IMG/VR virus record: IMGVR_UViG_3300050026_000390
Coordinates: 1-34,951 of that record
DNA length: 34,951 nt
From: a virus
Strand: one strand, 5' to 3'
A program made the translations under genes and the position numbers. The notes under the pieces are model-generated. The model had not been told where the DNA came from, searched no databases, and saw nothing but the letters and a program-made list of their open reading frames with translations. Below, piece after piece: positions 13,266-33,315 of the stretch. Position 1 is the stretch's first letter. Each line of letters begins with the position of its first letter.

Positions 13266-14438
13266 TTATTTATAAAAAATACCGTGTTTAATTTCGTTCG
13301 GGATCTCTATACCAATGTCTGCATAGATTTTGCATTTCTGTGAAGAAGCTCCCATGGCCTGAACGTCTTCCTCGATTCTGAACTTCTGTGTACCCTTGGT
13401 ATCGTTGGCCATATAACGCATTTTAATGTTTTCCCAATCTACGGCATAACCGTAATTAGTGAATTTACCGTCCATACGAGGATTCCAGTATACGTTGACC
13501 ATTCCGAAAGGAGTTAAATATCTTGAAAGATTAACTCCGTATTCCTTTGCGGGGATAGCTGTAATCTGATATTTGTCCTTTAGAATTTTATTCACAGCAG
13601 TGGTGAGATTTGCTCCGAGATAAAAATCTCTCGAATCACTTCCGCCGGTATCAAATACGCCTTGTAAGAAAGCATCAAGAGCGTCTTCAGTAGCAAGAGT
13701 ATAACTGATTTTATTGGTCACAATTGTGCCTAAAAATCCTTTGCCCCAAGTTACGGGAGAAGATCCGGTTGTATTTCTGCCACTAGATGTTGAGAACATT
13801 AAATTTCTTTCAAACATCTGTTTCATTTCCTCGACTCTCTTCTGTGCCTGTTCGTCGTAACTTCTTCCGTTTGTAAAGTGCTTTGCGCCCTGCTCACGTG
13901 AAGACATTTCAACAGATTCGTTAAAGATAGTAAGGTAATTAGTAACAGCAACTTCCTGTGTAGCTGTAGCAATTCGAGGGGTATTGTATTCAGGGTTTCT
14001 ACTTCCAAGTTTTTTAATATAACCACCGATTGCGGCAACTGCTGTAATGGTTGTTCCATCCATTGCTGTGATTGTTACAGCACTACCGGAGGTATAGGTA
14101 CTAACATATACTAATTGTTCGGATGCTTCGATCAAAAGTATATCGTCCTGCTGAAAATAAGTAGGACTGGCTAGTTTAGCGTAAAGGTTTTCAGTCGCAC
14201 CACCACCGGTAATTGCTGCCGAGGTAGTTGTTTGGTAAGGATATAACTCATCTTCAAAGTAAGTAAATGCGCCTTTAGCGTCAATTACTTCTTCCGATGG
14301 ACGTTCTGAAAAATAAAGTTTTTGAAATAATTGACTCTGATACGGTTTCAACAGATAAAGAAACGCATCGTTATCGGGCATTTGGTTAGTGTCTAACACT
14401 ACATCAGACGCTAACACACCGGCTATGACTGTAGGCAT
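13266..14438 (-). CDS. major capsid protein, SU10/DUF5309-like, 390 aa
   Basis: Forms the capsid shell. The 390-residue length, the position right after a scaffold-like gene and the sequence pattern fit the SU10-type HK97-fold capsid family (DUF5309). Features include a helical segment RSYDEQAQKRVEEMKQMFER at about 197-216, then an FLGTIVTN region, and a C-terminal IGIEIPNEIKHGIFYK. AGGAGT lies 5 nt before the ATG, one of the best ribosome-binding sites in the window, consistent with high expression. No signal for proteolytic processing seen. Confidence 0.82.
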   Translation of the reverse strand: MPTVIAGVLASDVVLDTNQMPDNDAFLYLLKPYQSQLFQKLYFSERPSEEVIDAKGAFTYFEDELYPYQTTTSAAITGGGATENLYAKLASPTYFQQDDILLIEASEQLVYVSTYTSGSAVTITAMDGTTITAVAAIGGYIKKLGSRNPEYNTPRIATATQEVAVTNYLTIFNESVEMSSREQGAKHFTNGRSYDEQAQKRVEEMKQMFERNLMFSTSSGRNTTGSSPVTWGKGFLGTIVTNKISYTLATEDALDAFLQGVFDTGGSDSRDFYLGANLTTAVNKILKDKYQITAIPAKEYGVNLSRYLTPFGMVNVYWNPRMDGKFTNYGYAVDWENIKMRYMANDTKGTQKFRIEEDVQAMGASSQKCKIYADIGIEIPNEIKHGIFYK

Positions 14439-19492: not shown

Positions 19493-21676
19493 TCAAAAAG
19501 ATGTGATAGTTTTTGTTTCACGAATTAAATTTACCGCTGCTTGACGCGCGGTAATGGGTTGTATTTCTTTGGGTTTAATAGGCGCATAAAGATAATTTAC
19601 TATGTAGCGAAGAGCATCACAATTGGAAACTAAAATATTATTCGCATAATAATTATGAGCATCTTCAACTTCTAAGTTATAAACTGGCATTTTCATATTT
19701 AGGGGTTTTAGTTCTAAACCCTTGATAAATTGATCTTCTACTTGCAGCCCTGCAGTTCTGATGACAAAACTTTGACCTCGTAGGAAAAGGAGTTTTATAT
19801 TCTCGACCACAAAATTTACAATTGACGATAACCTGTTCCCTATCTTCCCAGCATTGCTTGCCGTGTTCGGAGTGCCATTGTCTTCCCTCGTTTGAGGCAT
19901 GCCATTGCTTTGTAAGTGGTCTGATCTTATCAAGGTTTTGTTTTCTTCTTTGAATTTGTCCAGGGGTTTTATTGTTCCCATGCAAAGATGCATGTTTTGA
20001 TTTTGTGAGAAGTTGTAGGTTAGAAATGTTGTTATTTTTTCTATTAAAATCTTTGTGATGGACTTCATATCCTTTCGGGACTTCTCCATATGATTCTGCG
20101 TAAATGATAACATGAAGTCTTTTGCGACCGTCTTTACATCCTCCGACGGGGGAGTAATAATTCCCGTCCCAATTATATTTTTGACCTTTGTAAGTAATTG
20201 ACATATTGAAACCTTTTTGATTGCAATATAATCAAAGTATCGCAATGAATCAATAGGTACTTTACCTCTTGCTGTATAAGTCGGATGATTGCCGGTACCG
20301 ATTAGCCCATACTCTCCAATAGTCAATTCGTAAACCATATCAACTCCAGTCATACAGGAAACTAAAACTTTTTTTATACCTTGTGAAGTAATAACATATT
20401 CACCAACTTTAACATCTTGAATATTTTTTAGTGAGTAGTCATGCATCAAAATCTTAGTATCAGCAATCAAACAACAATGGTCGTCTCTCTTAATCGGTTC
20501 TTCGTATTCGTTTTTAACTTCGCCAGGTTTCAATGCTTTCCATTTATAATTTCCGATCTCTCGAATTAAATTAACACAATTACTTGATATTTGCAAACGT
20601 CCGGACTTGAACATCTCATTTACTCGGTTGATTCCTTGCCTCACATCATTATCGGCATGGTTCCAGACAATGCCGTTTAATAAATATTCCATCGCAACGT
20701 TTGACCCGTCTCTTTCTACTTTTGAAATCGATGGATCTGCTATTTTATATCCTCTATCAAAAAACTTTCTTGTTTTTAATTCTGTTGATACATCACTTAT
20801 AAGTTTCCCAGCTTCATAATATTCATCATAAAACGTAGTAATCCCATCATAATTTGTTGCTGCAAATAAAACAGCTGTTGGATTTCTAAAACCATAATCC
20901 ATGCAGATGGTTATTTCGTCTATATCAAACGGGTCGTAATAACTAGTTTTATGTTTAGCTTCAATAAATTCGTTGAATACTAATCCCTCAAAATCTTCCC
21001 ACGAACAAAATACATATCTCTTAACCCATCGCTCGGGATATGCTAAAAGTTCTTTAACATAATCAGCGGGCAAGTAAATATTTTCCGTTGTGATAGCTTC
21101 AAAGAGTTCATAACCTTCAATCTGATTATTTTTCCATCTATCCCACAACCAATCGTGACCAGCGGGGTTACACGTTGCAAAGAAGTCTCTCCCTGAATCG
21201 TTACGTCTTAAGCGGCCTTGAAAAGCCAAAAATACAGCTTCCTGAATTTCCTCCAATTGGTCTATCGCAACAAAACCTAAATTCAGCGACTTTATCTTTT
21301 CGGTTGCTTCTCTTGAATCATCTAAGTTCATATAAAATAATCTTGACCCATTTATGAAGTCAATCCAGTGGTCTTGTTTGTTGTGATTTGATATTAATTC
21401 AGCAGGACAAATATCCAGAAAATCTTTTAGTGTTGTAGATTTTAATTCACCCAAATCTTTACGTCCAAGAACTCCGTAGTTGTTTTTATATGACGGATGG
21501 AATAATTGACAGAGTACCTCGATAATCAAACTTGTGGATTTCCCACAACCGAAGCCACCGGCCAATAATCTGTATTTTGATTTTGAATTGTGGAATTTAA
21601 CTTGTGTCGGTAAAGGTAAGCCTTGCGGGTTCTGTGAGTTTTTTGGATACGAAATTCTAACGGTTGCTTCAGACAT
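19493..21676 (-). CDS. terL: large terminase subunit interrupted by an intein, 727-aa precursor
   Basis: ATP-driven packaging motor and headful/site nuclease. The ATPase part has Walker A GGFGCGKST (residues 40-48) and Walker B FVAIDQLEEI (about 135-144). The nuclease part has conserved acidic residues at D260 (ICMDYGF) and D314 (IADPS). Its final motif is split by an intein at residues 402-685: the exteins read RDDHC then CDALRYIVNY, so the joined protein is about 443 aa and regains DDHCCDALRY. Insertion at a catalytic motif is typical of inteins. A separate HNH frame overlaps residues about 491-667. Confidence 0.9.
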   Translation of the reverse strand: MSEATVRISYPKNSQNPQGLPLPTQVKFHNSKSKYRLLAGGFGCGKSTSLIIEVLCQLFHPSYKNNYGVLGRKDLGELKSTTLKDFLDICPAELISNHNKQDHWIDFINGSRLFYMNLDDSREATEKIKSLNLGFVAIDQLEEIQEAVFLAFQGRLRRNDSGRDFFATCNPAGHDWLWDRWKNNQIEGYELFEAITTENIYLPADYVKELLAYPERWVKRYVFCSWEDFEGLVFNEFIEAKHKTSYYDPFDIDEITICMDYGFRNPTAVLFAATNYDGITTFYDEYYEAGKLISDVSTELKTRKFFDRGYKIADPSISKVERDGSNVAMEYLLNGIVWNHADNDVRQGINRVNEMFKSGRLQISSNCVNLIREIGNYKWKALKPGEVKNEYEEPIKRDDHCCLIADTKILMHDYSLKNIQDVKVGEYVITSQGIKKVLVSCMTGVDMVYELTIGEYGLIGTGNHPTYTARGKVPIDSLRYFDYIAIKKVSICQLLTKVKNIIGTGIITPPSEDVKTVAKDFMLSFTQNHMEKSRKDMKSITKILIEKITTFLTYNFSQNQNMHLCMGTIKPLDKFKEENKTLIRSDHLQSNGMPQTREDNGTPNTASNAGKIGNRLSSIVNFVVENIKLLFLRGQSFVIRTAGLQVEDQFIKGLELKPLNMKMPVYNLEVEDAHNYYANNILVSNCDALRYIVNYLYAPIKPKEIQPITARQAAVNLIRETKTITSF
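19622..20473 (-). mobile_element. intein in the large terminase (284 aa)
   Basis: The N-terminal splicing block starts at Cys402 (CLIADTKILMHDYS), with block B GTGNHPTY at 460-467. The C-terminal blocks F and G read VYNLEVEDAHNYYANNILVS then Asn685, followed by Cys686 as the +1 nucleophile. The penultimate residue is Ser, where His is usual, so the last cleavage step may be slower or use another residue. Between the splicing halves, residues about 490-662 match no endonuclease in this frame; instead an HNH gene lies there in the -1 frame. Splicing is expected from the motifs but not shown. Confidence 0.85.
19677..20204 (-). CDS. HNH homing endonuclease encoded out of frame inside the intein, 175 aa
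   Basis: A complete HNH gene in the -1 frame relative to terminase. It starts MSITYKGQKYNWDGNYYSP and has the core LHVIIYAESYGEVPKGYEVH then HKDFNRKNNNISNLQLLTKS. A C-terminal zinc finger follows (VNCKFCGREYKTPF, FCHQNCRAASRRS). The ATG at 20204 has AAAAAGG with 7-nt spacing, so it can be translated independently. In this frame a TGA lies nine or ten codons upstream, so it is not a simple continuation of the N-intein, although a -1 slip at C AAA AAG could reach it. It fills exactly the region where inteins normally hold their endonuclease. Confidence 0.85.
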   Translation of the reverse strand: MSITYKGQKYNWDGNYYSPVGGCKDGRKRLHVIIYAESYGEVPKGYEVHHKDFNRKNNNISNLQLLTKSKHASLHGNNKTPGQIQRRKQNLDKIRPLTKQWHASNEGRQWHSEHGKQCWEDREQVIVNCKFCGREYKTPFPTRSKFCHQNCRAASRRSIYQGFRTKTPKYENASL

Positions 21677-26026: not shown

Positions 26027-26114
26027 AAAAAAGCCCTTTCCACATAATGCGAGTTATGCAAAAAGAGCTTTTGTAAAAGAGAAAAGAAAAATATTTATGT
26101 TTAATGTCTCGCAC
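26027..26114 (-). ncRNA. pseudoknotted terminator-like RNA before the helicase gene
   Basis: On the minus strand an 18-bp stem (26054-26071 with 26030-26047) contains four G-U or U-G pairs, a 6-nt loop CTCGCA and a following TTTTTT. The wobble pairs are valid only on this strand. The entire loop can pair with TGCGAG at 26108-26113, 36 nt upstream, making a pseudoknot or kissing-like contact. A TTG-N19-TATATTTG promoter lies 46 nt upstream. It may be an attenuator controlling the helicase operon or a small terminated RNA. Confidence 0.6.
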
Positions 26115-26159
26115 CACTAAACTCGTTTTAATAAAAATTAGTTTCAAAATTTCACTTCA

Positions 26160-27272: not shown

Positions 27273-28115
27273 ATGAGCGTAAAAGGCTTCAAGGTTTTTA
27301 ATCCAGATTTTACCTGTCACGGTTTTCAATATGCAGAGAATACAAAATTCAAATTCGATGGAGCAATTAAAATCTGTTCATCGGGCTTTCACTTTTGCGA
27401 AAAAGCATCAGACTGTTTTTCTTATTATTCTTTCGATCCCAAAAACATAGTTTGCGAAGTTGAAGGGCTTGGGAAAATCGAAAGCGAAGAAAGCGATTCG
27501 AAAAAATGTACAGATGAAATTCTTATCGGAAGAAAATTAACCTGGGATGAGGTTTTGAAGGTTGCTAACGAAGGTTCTAATAATGCTGGATTGGCTAATA
27601 GCGGTAACTGGAATAGCGGTTACAGGAATAGCGGTGACAGTAATAGCGGTAACAGGAATAGCGGTAACTGGAATAGCGGTAACAGTAATAGCGGTGACAG
27701 TAATAGCGGTAACTGGAATAGCGGTTACAGGAATAGCGGTGACAGTAATAGCGGTTACAGGAATAGCGGCGCGTTCTGCCTCGACAATAACCCCAAATTG
27801 TTTTTATTCGACAAACCAACAAATATAAATGTTCGTGATTGGGAAAATACAGAAGTTATAAAAACTATGAGAAATTTACTCGAAATAAACGAGTGGATTT
27901 ACAAAAACTCAATGACAGATGAAGAAAAAGAAAAATTTCCGACCTATAAAACCACCGGCGGTTATCTTAAAACAAAAACATTGCACGAAGCCTGGGAAGA
28001 TATGTGGAGCAATCTTGAGAAAGAAAAGAAACAACTATTCTTAGACCTTCCGAATTTTGATGCGGAAAAATTTAAGATCATAACCGGAGTAGATGTTTCG
28101 GAGGATTTGAAATGA
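27273..28115 (+). CDS. DUF7666-like protein with NSG(N/Y/D)(W/R/S) pentapeptide repeats, 280 aa
   Basis: The N-terminus (MSVKGFKVFNPDFTCHGFQY, then ICSSGFHFCEKASDCFSYYS) matches the DUF7666 domain of phage and bacterial proteins. After about residue 108 come 11 full tandem 5-residue units plus a final variant (NSGNW, NSGYR, NSGDS ...), then a helical C-terminal domain. The repeats resemble pentapeptide or beta-solenoid proteins that can mimic DNA, but they are only about 60 residues long. Family proteins often carry the same repeats. Function unknown. Confidence 0.75.
   Translation: MSVKGFKVFNPDFTCHGFQYAENTKFKFDGAIKICSSGFHFCEKASDCFSYYSFDPKNIVCEVEGLGKIESEESDSKKCTDEILIGRKLTWDEVLKVANEGSNNAGLANSGNWNSGYRNSGDSNSGNRNSGNWNSGNSNSGDSNSGNWNSGYRNSGDSNSGYRNSGAFCLDNNPKLFLFDKPTNINVRDWENTEVIKTMRNLLEINEWIYKNSMTDEEKEKFPTYKTTGGYLKTKTLHEAWEDMWSNLEKEKKQLFLDLPNFDAEKFKIITGVDVSEDLK
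27597..27776 (+). repeat. 15-bp tandem repeats, AATAGCGGT plus variable six bases
   Basis: Eleven full units start every 15 bp from 27597, with a twelfth variant at 27762. The first nine bases AATAGCGGT are invariant in the full units. The last six vary among AACTGG, TACAGG, GACAGT, AACAGG and AACAGT, giving N/Y/D at position 4 and W/R/S at position 5. No frame is broken. Confidence 0.95.
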
Positions 28116-31544: not shown

Positions 31545-31575
31545 TTGGAACAAATCAAATAATTTCTTAACTTTG
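31545..31575 (+). promoter_or_regulatory. Bacteroidota-type promoter before pseudoknot RNA
   Basis: TTTG (TTG at 31545-31547), a 20-nt spacer and TAACTTTG (31568-31575) match TTG...TAnnTTTG. Transcription would begin about at the first base of the structured RNA. Confidence 0.6.
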
Positions 31576-31577
31576 GT

Positions 31578-31680
31578 ATGCGATGATACAAAACAATTCA
31601 AAAATATTAAATGGCTCGAACTTAGTAAAGGATACCTACCCGTATCATCGCACTTTATTAGGCGAGAGCCATTTTTATTT
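31578..31680 (+). ncRNA. pseudoknotted RNA before the plus-strand HNH gene
   Basis: Stem A is a perfect 11 bp: TGCGATGATAC (31579-31589) with GTATCATCGCA (31642-31652). Stem B is a perfect 9 bp: AAATGGCTC (31609-31617) with GAGCCATTT (31666-31674). The order A5', B5', A3', B3' makes an H-type pseudoknot. B is followed by a T-rich stretch (TTTATTT) like a terminator. It lies directly downstream of a good promoter and upstream of the HNH-AP2 gene. It may be a small RNA or an attenuator. Confidence 0.68.
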
Positions 31681-31692
31681 ATGGATAGTAAA

Positions 31693-32229
31693 ATGAAAGA
31701 GATCAAACTAACTCAGGGGAAGATTGCTTTAGTTGATGATGAAGATTTTGAAGAACTCAACAAACATAGGTGGTATATAATTAAAAGCAAATATTGTTAT
31801 GCGACGAGAATGAAGTCAAAATCAAAGGGCGTGATCCTAATGCACCGAGCCATCATGAACACCCCGAAAGAGTTATTCGTTGACCACATCGACCACGATA
31901 CATTAAACAACCAAAAATATAATTTAAGAAATTGCACGCGCTCAGAAAATATGATGAATCAAGAAATACAGACAAAAAGGATAAGCCAATATAAAGGGGT
32001 TTTCAAGACCAACAGATACTATAAAGATAAAATATATTCGTCCTGGATAGCTAAAATAAAAATAGAGCAAAAAACACTCTATCTTGGCGCACACAAAACC
32101 GAAATAGAGGCAGCGATAGCATATAATAAAAAAGCAACAGAGTTGTTTGGTGAGTTTGCGTTATTAAATACTATCCCGAACCAACAAGATTTTGTTAAAG
32201 ATAAAATTAAAACAGATAGAGTTGATTAA
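31693..32229 (+). CDS. HNH-AP2 homing endonuclease, 178 aa
   Basis: The N-terminus MKEIKLTQGKIALVDDEDFE is the usual opening of free-standing HNH-AP2 endonucleases. The HNH core is MHRAIMNTPKELFVDHIDHD then TLNNQKYNLRNCTRSENMMN. The AP2 DNA-binding part is QYKGVFKTNRYYKDKIYSSW through KATELFGEFALLN, similar to that of the minus-strand HNH starting at 16422. The start at 31693 matches the family; an ATG four codons earlier is possible. The frame is open upstream through the structured RNA, but I see no start there with a ribosome-binding site. Confidence 0.85.
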   Translation: MKEIKLTQGKIALVDDEDFEELNKHRWYIIKSKYCYATRMKSKSKGVILMHRAIMNTPKELFVDHIDHDTLNNQKYNLRNCTRSENMMNQEIQTKRISQYKGVFKTNRYYKDKIYSSWIAKIKIEQKTLYLGAHKTEIEAAIAYNKKATELFGEFALLNTIPNQQDFVKDKIKTDRVD

Positions 32230-32267: not shown

Positions 32268-32633
32268 ATGCCAGAACCAAAAACAATTAAAATCGATGAT
32301 GTTGAATATATCCGCAAGGATAGCATTCCATCTCTTGACAACAATGAAAACTATTCAATCATTCGCACACAAAATGCCGGAGTTCATGCAGGTTATTTGC
32401 AGTCAACAAATATCGGTAATGGAAGCGTTGTATTAAAAAATGCTCGAAGAATTTGGTATTGGGATGGGGCGGCTTCACTTTCTCAACTTGCGCTTGAAGG
32501 GGTTTCAAAACCAGAAAATTGTAAATTTTCAGTAGTTGTTCCTGAAATTACATTGTTGGGTGTTATTGAAATAATTCCATGCACTATTTCTGCATTAAAA
32601 AATATTTCACAGGTAAAAATATGGAAAAGCTAA
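32268..32633 (+). CDS. DUF6948-like protein, 121 aa
   Basis: The product (MPEPKTIKIDDVEYIRKDSI) includes the stretch YSIIRTQNAGVHAGYLQSTN, then VVLKNARRIWYWDGAASLSQ, and ends IEIIPCTISALKNISQVKIW, which I associate with the DUF6948 phage family. The start has AAGGAG. In phages this gene is often followed by a Gly-Ser/Tyr/Asp repeat gene, as here; the two overlap by 13 nt. Function unknown. Confidence 0.78.
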   Translation: MPEPKTIKIDDVEYIRKDSIPSLDNNENYSIIRTQNAGVHAGYLQSTNIGNGSVVLKNARRIWYWDGAASLSQLALEGVSKPENCKFSVVVPEITLLGVIEIIPCTISALKNISQVKIWKS

Positions 32634-32914
32634 TTGGTTCCGGTTACGGTTCCGGTGACGGTTACGGTTACGGTTACGGTTACGGTTCCGGTTCCGGTTC
32701 CGGTTACGGTTCCGGTGACGGTTACGGTTACGGTTCCGGTTCCGGTTACGGTTACGGTTCCGGTTCCGGTTCCGGTGACGGTTCCGGTTACGGTGACGGT
32801 TACGGTTCCGGTTCCGGTTCCGGTTCCGGTGACGGTTCCGGTTACGGTGACGGTTACGGTTTCGGTTCCGGTTCCGGTGACGGTGACGGTTACGGTTCCG
32901 GTTCCGGTTCATAA
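32621..32914 (+). CDS. G(S/Y/D)-repeat low-complexity protein, 97 aa
   Basis: After MEKLI the whole protein is dipeptide repeats GS, GY and GD (one GF). The ATG at 32621 is chosen because the short MEKLI leader is the usual start of such phage proteins; an in-frame ATG lies further upstream inside the DUF6948 gene. All frames are open on both strands through the repeat, so coding cannot be judged by frame alone, but the coupling to the DUF6948 gene supports this one. It could be a flexible or phase-separating tail. Function unknown. Confidence 0.65.
   Translation: MEKLIGSGYGSGDGYGYGYGYGSGSGSGYGSGDGYGYGSGSGYGYGSGSGSGDGSGYGDGYGSGSGSGSGDGSGYGDGYGFGSGSGDGDGYGSGSGS
32636..32908 (+). repeat. 6-bp tandem repeats GGT(TCC/TAC/GAC)
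   Basis: About 45 consecutive 6-bp units, each GGT followed by TCC, TAC or GAC, with one TTC. The first three bases never change. Longer blocks such as GGTGACGGTTACGG recur, pointing to slippage and recombination among units. Confidence 0.95.
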
Positions 32915-32970: not shown

Positions 32971-33001
32971 TTGACTCAATCGTAATAATTTATTAATTTT
33001 A
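32971..33001 (+). promoter_or_regulatory. candidate promoter before second plus-strand pseudoknot RNA
   Basis: TTG (32971-32973), a 20-nt spacer and TAATTTTA (32994-33001), one mismatch from TAnnTTTG. Predicted start is within a few bases of the long stem at 33006. Confidence 0.5.
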
Positions 33002-33005
33002 CAGC

Positions 33006-33120
33006 GCTTGTAACAGGAGTTTATCTAAATGAAAATAATAGCCCTTGATTTGAATGTGAACGAAATTCTTACCAAAGAACTCCGTTACAAGCCACGTTCG
33101 AACAAGGGCTTTCTATTTTT
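33006..33120 (+). ncRNA. pseudoknotted RNA with U-rich end, overlapping a 38-aa frame
   Basis: Stem X pairs 33006-33022 with 33077-33092: GCTTGTAAC/GTTACAAGC then GGAGTTT/GAACTCC, with a single bulged A at 33015 and one G-U. Stem Y pairs AGCCCTTG (33040-33047) with CAAGGGCT (33103-33110), followed by TTCTATTTTT. The order X5', Y5', X3', Y3' makes an H-type pseudoknot, as at 31578-31680. Stem X contains the AGGAG Shine-Dalgarno of a short frame starting at 33029, so the fold could control that frame or be a small RNA in its own right. Confidence 0.65.
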
Positions 33121-33145
33121 AAGAGGTTGTGATGAGAGAGATTAA
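33029..33145 (+). CDS. small protein, 38 aa, within the structured RNA
   Basis: ATG at 33029 with AGGAG 9 nt upstream. The product (MKIIALDLNVNEILTKELRY..., then KGFLFLRGCDERD) is hydrophobic at the start and basic in the middle. The Shine-Dalgarno lies inside stem X of the pseudoknot. Coding potential is plausible but the RNA fold explains much of the sequence constraint. Confidence 0.4.
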   Translation: MKIIALDLNVNEILTKELRYKPRSNKGFLFLRGCDERD

Positions 33146-33227
33146 TCCGGTAAGTATGAGCAAATTTTTGAATGAAGTTGTTGAGTTCTTTGAATTTCGT
33201 CAACTACAACACTTTGAACGTTTCTAA
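33132..33227 (+). CDS. possible micro-protein, 31 aa (plus strand)
   Basis: ATG with AGAGG 5 nt upstream; the product (MREINPVSMSKFLNEVVEFF...) is short and helical. An opposite-strand frame at 33142-33315 covers the same bases; only one is likely real. Confidence 0.3.
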   Translation: MREINPVSMSKFLNEVVEFFEFRQLQHFERF

Positions 33228-33315
33228 AATATCCCGCATGGCTTCGCATTTGTTGTAGGTATTCGATAAGCGCATCGCTGATTTTTTCAAGGTCTTCTTT
33301 TGATAGCAAGATCAC
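33142..33315 (-). CDS. possible antisense small protein, 57 aa
   Basis: A GTG-started minus-strand frame encoding a regular amphipathic product (MILLSKEDLEKISDALIEYL..., then VVVDEIQRTQQLHSKI) that looks protein-like. On the plus strand, 33228-33344 has no convincing frame. No Shine-Dalgarno or promoter is seen for it. Confidence 0.3.
   Translation of the reverse strand: MILLSKEDLEKISDALIEYLQQMRSHAGYFRNVQSVVVDEIQRTQQLHSKICSYLPD

Follow-up and report, generated by a model that had tools for sequence, protein, structure and literature searches.

What is encoded between the NinB-like gene of a recombination operon and the HNH-AP2 gene of a phage, and does it act on the gene that follows? The window analysed here comprises the whole 34,951 nt of IMG/VR record IMGVR_UViG_3300050026_000390. 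A first-pass annotation had placed at 31545-31680 a TTG-N20-TAACTTTG promoter, an RNA with an 11-bp and a 9-bp stem in pseudoknot order and a T-rich end. All these elements were verified in the sequence. The RNA, designated RNA1, and its surroundings are composed as follows:

up to 31537: NinB-like gene of the upstream recombination operon
31545-31547, + strand: TTG, -33 element of the putative RNA1 promoter, 20 nt 5' of TAACTTTG
31568-31575, + strand: putative -7 element TAACTTTG
31579-31589, + strand: 5' strand of helix A, TGCGATGATAC, 3 nt past the -7 element
31583-31696, + strand: 37-codon ORF across RNA1, its stop overlapping the HNH ATG (ATGA)
31590-31608, + strand: linker L1, A-rich, 19 nt
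31609-31617, + strand: 5' strand of helix B, AAATGGCTC
31621-31630, + strand: 5' strand of helix C, partner of 31653-31662
31631-31646, + strand: competing local hairpin GATAC-CTACCC-GTATC, which excludes part of helix A
31642-31652, + strand: 3' strand of helix A (A'), GTATCATCGCA, with a gap of 0 nt to helix C
31653-31662, + strand: 3' strand of helix C
31666-31674, + strand: 3' strand of helix B, GAGCCATTT
31672-31680, + strand: U-rich run TTTTTATTT, a terminator-like end
31693-32229, + strand: HNH-AP2 homing-endonuclease-like gene (Pfam HNH_3, 1.5e-07; PHROG 99, 2e-31), with an alternative ATG at 31681

Structure of RNA1

The -7 element of RNA1 is assigned to TAnnTTTG, which is presumably the -7 consensus of the Bacteroidota type. 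On its own, TAnnTTTG occurs in the window at chance level, so the evidence for this element is its position relative to helix A. Transcription would be expected to start at about the 5' strand of helix A, at 31579.

Helix A comprises 11 bp without a mismatch and helix B 9 bp, in the order A-B-A'-B'. A third helix, C (9-10 bp), which the first-pass annotation had missed, stacks on helix B. The end of A' abuts the 3' strand of this inner stem exactly, and the same holds for RNA2, a second RNA of the window described below. The GATAC/GTATC hairpin previously suggested as a competitor is indeed present (31631-31635/31642-31646). Together with B and C, it makes up the nested minimum-energy fold (-25.7 kcal/mol, z -4.6). 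Helix A together with the B-C hairpin reaches -37.0 kcal/mol compared to -26.4 kcal/mol for the best nested fold, the pseudoknot penalty being excluded. With its G+C-containing hairpin and a U-run directly after it, RNA1 has the features of an intrinsic terminator. The hairpin is absent from a standard terminator scan because its interior is far longer than usual.

The earlier assertion that matches of 11 bp and 9 bp exceed chance was borne out. A pseudoknot with A of at least 11 bp, B of at least 9 bp and a span of at most 110 nt occurs only once on the + strand of the window, as RNA1, and was found twice in 200 dinucleotide-shuffled whole windows (0.01 per window). A looser test required helices of at least 8 bp with a sum of 17, thresholds that were chosen after the second case was known. 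The combination of pseudoknot, U-run and promoter was then found twice in the window and never in 150 shuffles, which contained six pseudoknots with a U-run in total when the promoter was not required.

At the gathering threshold, Rfam detected only tRNA in the whole window, and at E<=1 or 10 it returned only chance-level matches for RNA1, RNA2 and the other leader regions. DNA similarity searches in the phage collection yielded no sequence homologue of RNA1 and, for RNA1, RNA2, L113 and L136 (the latter two from other phages), no match covering the RNA. The exact-arm pattern of helix A was found zero times in viral contigs and the helix B pattern in nine stretches, by our estimate approximately at chance level. 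One pair of these stretches, L008/L009, displayed a similar pseudoknot, which sits inside an SNF2-like helicase ORF. This means that single cases can be due to chance.

RNA2 and RNA3 in the same phage

Two further RNAs of this type were found in the window. Both were compared with L022, a close relative:

32971-33001, + strand: putative RNA2 promoter, TTG-N20-TAATTTTA
33006-33120, + strand: RNA2, with a U-run to about 33120; kept in L022
33006-33014 (and 33016-33021 past a bulge)/33078-33092, + strand: helix A of RNA2
33040-33047/33103-33110, + strand: helix B of RNA2
33132-33145, + strand: remnant of an HNH gene start after RNA2; the gene is intact in L022
24851-26014: DEAD/ResIII helicase gene, preceded by RNA3
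26032-26115, - strand: RNA3, the diverged counterpart of an L022 RNA

RNA2 displays the same order of parts as RNA1. Its helix A starts 4 nt past the -7 element, and its nested fold has a z of -4.7. No sequence similarity between RNA2 and RNA1 is apparent. In L022, RNA2 lies within a 229-nt stretch of 97.8% identity and leads directly to an intact HNH-AP2 gene, of which the window keeps the first codons only. A protein-like 57-codon ORF (33142-33315, - strand) faces the end of RNA2 at the place where this second HNH gene is missing. Further upstream, after a DUF6948 gene, an ORF encoding Gly/Ser/Tyr/Asp repeats (32579-32914, + strand) consists of near-perfect 6-base units and is open on both strands.

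RNA3 and its L022 counterpart share their upstream DNA; the RNAs themselves have diverged and the downstream genes are different. All eight pairs of helix A are kept (8/8): two are changed on both sides, two on one side, and none is broken. The terminator stem is paired at 14/14 positions in RNA3 and at 14/14 in the L022 counterpart.

Queries with the terminase retrieved L021 only, and L021 lacks an RNA of this kind. In the large terminase subunit of the window (19493-21676, - strand), residues from about 401 to 687 form an intein-like insertion that is absent from the L021 relative.

Leaders of the same layout in other phages

Phage DNA for leader scans was obtained via relatives of the neighbouring DUF7666 gene. 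In the window, the DUF7666 domain is fused to pentapeptide repeats (27273-28115, + strand); relatives are frequent among phage contigs and at loci of Clostridia genomes. The initial scan, covering 446,125 bp, yielded 13 matches, whereas three shuffled replicates averaged 1.0; when the promoter was required, the figures were eight and zero. One RNA2 duplicate and the L008/L009 pair (coding DNA fetched by a helix B pattern) are included in these matches. An energy-based scan of 1,070,684 bp gave 21 redundant matches, among them six distinct promoter-positive leaders: RNA1, RNA2, L028+, L028-, L039 and L071+. When the 950,839 non-redundant bases were shuffled 20 times, 116 matches arose, two of them with a promoter (0.1 per shuffled set). 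In a second sample of 1.39 Mb, leaders proved to be sparse, with one promoter-positive case (L113) among 32 matches. Across 509 pseudoknots scanned without a U-run requirement, some of them redundant, promoter and U-run were associated with an odds ratio of 4.2 (p 0.005).

A set of leaders was assembled irrespective of helix A, the criteria being a TTG-N18-21-TAnnTTT[GA] promoter and, after it, a terminator-like hairpin (n=30 in 2,086,998 bp). In 7/30, where 0.6 would be expected, the 5' segment matched the hairpin interior with p<=0.02; the seven include L147, which is of low complexity. A match of at least 9 bp between a leader's own 5' segment and its loop was found in six of the 30 versus 0.46% of 870 mismatched pairs, and a match of at least 8 bp in eight of the 30 versus 2.8%. 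Decoy promoters gave 0/7 (scrambled -7 box) and 1/17 (CAA replacing TTG). The fold of the RNA1 type and its recurrence are well supported.

In most leaders, a start codon follows 12-27 nt past the hairpin. Besides HNH genes, the layout is found 5' of antirepressor, helicase, methyltransferase and replication-type genes. That one layout precedes such varied genes in other phages points to a common RNA switch and speaks against a fortuitous fold. The viral contig G010 carries, by our reading, five such leaders. Among cultured phages, B124-14, phi38:1 and 6H had zero promoter-positive matches in the energy scan. In looser scans, phi38:1 and 6H displayed matches with a sigma-70-like pattern, which were left out of membership, and Flavobacterium phage 11b had none.

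It was also considered whether the RNA travels with the HNH family as a whole. This was rejected, as the helicase-HNH junctions of the Bacillus phages Slash, Stahl and 268TH002 are too tight to accommodate a leader. An HNH fragment of the Methanosarcina virus MetMV (MK170447, L015 1380-1660) shares 77.5% identity across 71 bp with the start of the HNH gene in the window and has a 9-bp stem upstream. In L136 (8034-8426), a leader-like pseudoknot lies within a 117-codon open frame and has an SD-like GGAGG, with CCTCC in the loop.

Covariation and the downstream gene start in Riemerella phage RAP44

Two mutually paralogous leader RNAs, RAP44a and RAP44b, are present in the genome of this cultured phage (NC_019490), at about 13723-13866 (+ strand) and 30556-30426 (- strand). 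Downstream of each lie a small gene and an AntA/ANT antirepressor gene. Among the 15 pairs of helix A, nine are identical in both leaders, six are changed on both sides and none is broken. Conservation of paired positions in relatives had been named at the outset as a check on RNA1. Covariation of helices A and B was found in related leaders (RNA3 with its L022 counterpart, and the RAP44 pair), which are distinct from RNA1 itself.

In RAP44, the start of the downstream gene repeats the A strand once more, and positions 7, 11 and 12 of this copy change together with A and A'. Pairing of A' with the downstream gene start was strong (p<=0.002) in only three of 17 leader sequences tested: RAP44a and RAP44b, where it was equalled by 0/500 shuffles each, and L113 (p 0.002). 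The RNA2 copies of the window and of L022 gave p values of 0.08 and 0.35, respectively, and A' of RNA1 matched the HNH start region no better than shuffled sequence (p 0.84). A repeat of A at the start of the next gene was, therefore, rejected as a general rule.

A kissing-loop sub-architecture

Some leaders have a kissing-loop layout: a small 5' hairpin presents A in its loop, and the apical loop of the terminator hairpin contains A'. The 5' hairpin was individually significant (p<0.05) in RNA3, L022m, L028m, L072m and L127, that is, in 5/16 leaders (combined p 0.002). With p 0.60 for RNA1 and 0.83 for RNA2, it was discarded as a general rule. L028m, L071m and L072m have a common sequence core around A', with A and A' of L028m differing from those of the other two. 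From these three leaders, a subfamily with some sequence conservation, the covariance model R1 was built. It gained L072+ at E 0.029; the RNA3 counterpart of L022 scored E 1.8, which is not significant, and one marginal match was obtained across 395 genomes of the phylum.

Comparison with known RNAs

The immunity leader of satellite phage P4 has complementary segments before replication functions and is tied to early termination. The present layout would resemble it in the link between complementary leader segments and early termination, a likeness without any claim of homology. Type III toxin-antitoxin systems (ToxIN) are composed of tandem short pseudoknot repeats 5' of a ToxN-like nuclease. 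RNA1 was rejected as a ToxIN system because it is a single pseudoknot without tandem copies and the adjacent protein is of the HNH_3 type. IscB/omega-RNA systems combine an IscB-like protein with a HEARO RNA. This candidate was also dismissed: Pfam detects HNH_3 only, and Rfam has no match at RNA1.

Like c4 of P1/P7 (RF01695), the RNAs described here are promoter-proximal and lead an operon. The RAP44 leaders share more with c4, as they precede a small gene and an antirepressor gene and carry a strand complementary to the start of the small gene. In contrast to c4, the RNA's own 5' strand pairs with the antisense strand in these leaders. RNA1 is also unlike c4 in that it precedes an HNH gene without an antirepressor and lacks the start-region match. 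Rfam C4 was not detected in RNA1 or RNA2 (E<=10), nor in L113, L136, L071, the L182 region or the L028 region. In a review, c4 is described as antisense to ant mRNA (PMC12197685). Weinberg 2010 includes c4 motifs in its list, along with several RNAs of Bacteroidetes (PMC2864571); the comparison with these RNAs was made through Rfam only.

According to the consulted part of the IsrK paper on Salmonella prophage Gifsy-1, one promoter gives rise both to a short RNA that ends at a terminator and to an mRNA produced by read-through, and a small ORF is coupled to the next gene (PMC4825925). The same products and the same coupling are proposed here. In the case of IsrK, that part of the paper demonstrates the short and the long product, whereas those of RNA1 are deduced from the sequence. 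Furthermore, the word 'pseudoknot' is absent from the text of that paper.

Leaders of T4-like homing endonuclease genes, as far as excerpts describe them, are likewise structured RNAs directly 5' of a phage homing endonuclease gene. For T4-type I-TevI and mobE, the excerpts place the RBS in the leader structure, and for seg43 a stable hairpin just 5' of the RBS (PMC2988022). In contrast to the I-TevI and mobE hairpins, which in these excerpts sequester the RBS, RNA1 leaves the start region outside the stem: the 3' strand of helix B ends at 31674, and the start codons lie at 31681 and 31693. A further difference is that the present layout is also found before non-endonuclease genes.

The RAP44 leaders, which have the clearest context of all members, look like c4/IsrK leaders, and the layout is therefore placed with this known kind. 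As a class defined by shape it may be new; it is described in no paper found in our search of open-licence papers.

Function and alternative explanations

We favour, with a probability of about 0.5, the interpretation that RNA1 is a cis leader working in the manner of c4/IsrK, a pseudoknotted, intrinsic-terminator-like attenuator that controls the HNH gene. We infer that RNA1 is transcribed, terminated and regulatory. The locus would be a small transcription unit with its own promoter, a structured RNA of ~100 nt and the HNH-AP2 gene. The 5' end of RNA1 (helix A) would be drawn into the loop of the long B/C hairpin that ends in the U-run. By default, a short RNA stopping near 31680 would be made, and the HNH gene would be expressed from read-through transcripts only. 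A' would have two competing partners, the 5' end (A) or another strand, which would be the nearby GATAC in RNA1 and the downstream gene start region in RAP44 and L113. The choice between these partners would, hence, be the likely switch. Since helix A is compatible with the terminator hairpin, A:A' would not act as a classical antiterminator. Translation of a leader ORF could possibly melt the RNA structure.

The first-pass annotation had left open whether RNA1 is an attenuator of the HNH gene or an independent small RNA. The leader half of this proposal has gained, as both RNA1 and the RNA2 of L022 precede HNH-AP2 genes and the start codon is mostly 12-27 nt away. Such a spacing would be needless for a free sRNA acting in trans beside an HNH gene that is served by another promoter or the upstream operon. 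The self-contained unit of promoter, structure and U-run would suit such an sRNA, as would the persistence of RNA2 in a window that has lost its HNH gene, but antisense matches in the window are only 11-13 nt long and A/T-rich, none of them a good target. An independent sRNA is rather unlikely. Slightly less credible is a function in 5'-end protection, where the first mRNA nucleotides would be held in a helix and shielded from 5'-dependent decay without regulated termination. In RNA1 and RNA2, helix A follows the -7 box by 3-4 nt so that the 5' end itself would be paired, and the U-run might double as an A/U-rich start region. However, this would explain neither why the U-run is adjacent to the hairpin nor why a second A copy is present at the start codons in RAP44 and L113.

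Two explanations would dispense with a function of helix A. The B/C hairpin with its U-run is terminator-like and the NinB-like gene ends nearby, so an ordinary intrinsic terminator of the recombination operon could be envisaged, with helix A being coincidental. This is improbable, as the hairpin is separated from the NinB-like gene by a promoter, A matches are far more frequent in own than in mismatched pairs, and helix A covaries in related leaders. Even less is to be expected from a coding role, in which the complementarity would be accidental to an N-terminal HNH extension from TTG 31528 or to a 37-codon protein. Both frames are open, the HNH frame up to 31525, and ORFs across the whole RNA were noticed after the fact in 7/15 leaders compared to 2.0 expected (tail 0.001). 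The codon score of the 37-codon ORF is ambiguous, but the extension ranks among the bottom 3.6% of gene windows, the leader-spanning peptides match no Pfam or NCBIfam family, and HNH relatives in several other phages begin at the MKEI-like position.

Beyond the attenuator itself, it can tentatively be proposed that RNA1 belongs to an undescribed, shape-defined class of phage leaders whose 5' end pairs or kisses with the terminator-hairpin loop before the first gene. This class would be reused across operons, three times in the phage of the window, five times in G010 and twice in RAP44. The short RNA could act in trans on nascent leaders, resulting in an RNA-only feedback similar to copy-number control.

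Perspectives

Phage regulatory RNAs are usually found by models that combine sequence and structure. Such models are blind to a pseudoknot whose shape is constant while its sequence turns over. The cultured phage RAP44 makes the reading as an RNA switch testable. If it is true, many Bacteroidota phages, and perhaps those of other hosts, would control accessory, replication and antirepressor genes by one kind of RNA switch. The arrival of an HNH homing gene together with a regulated expression unit of its own would likewise be accounted for.
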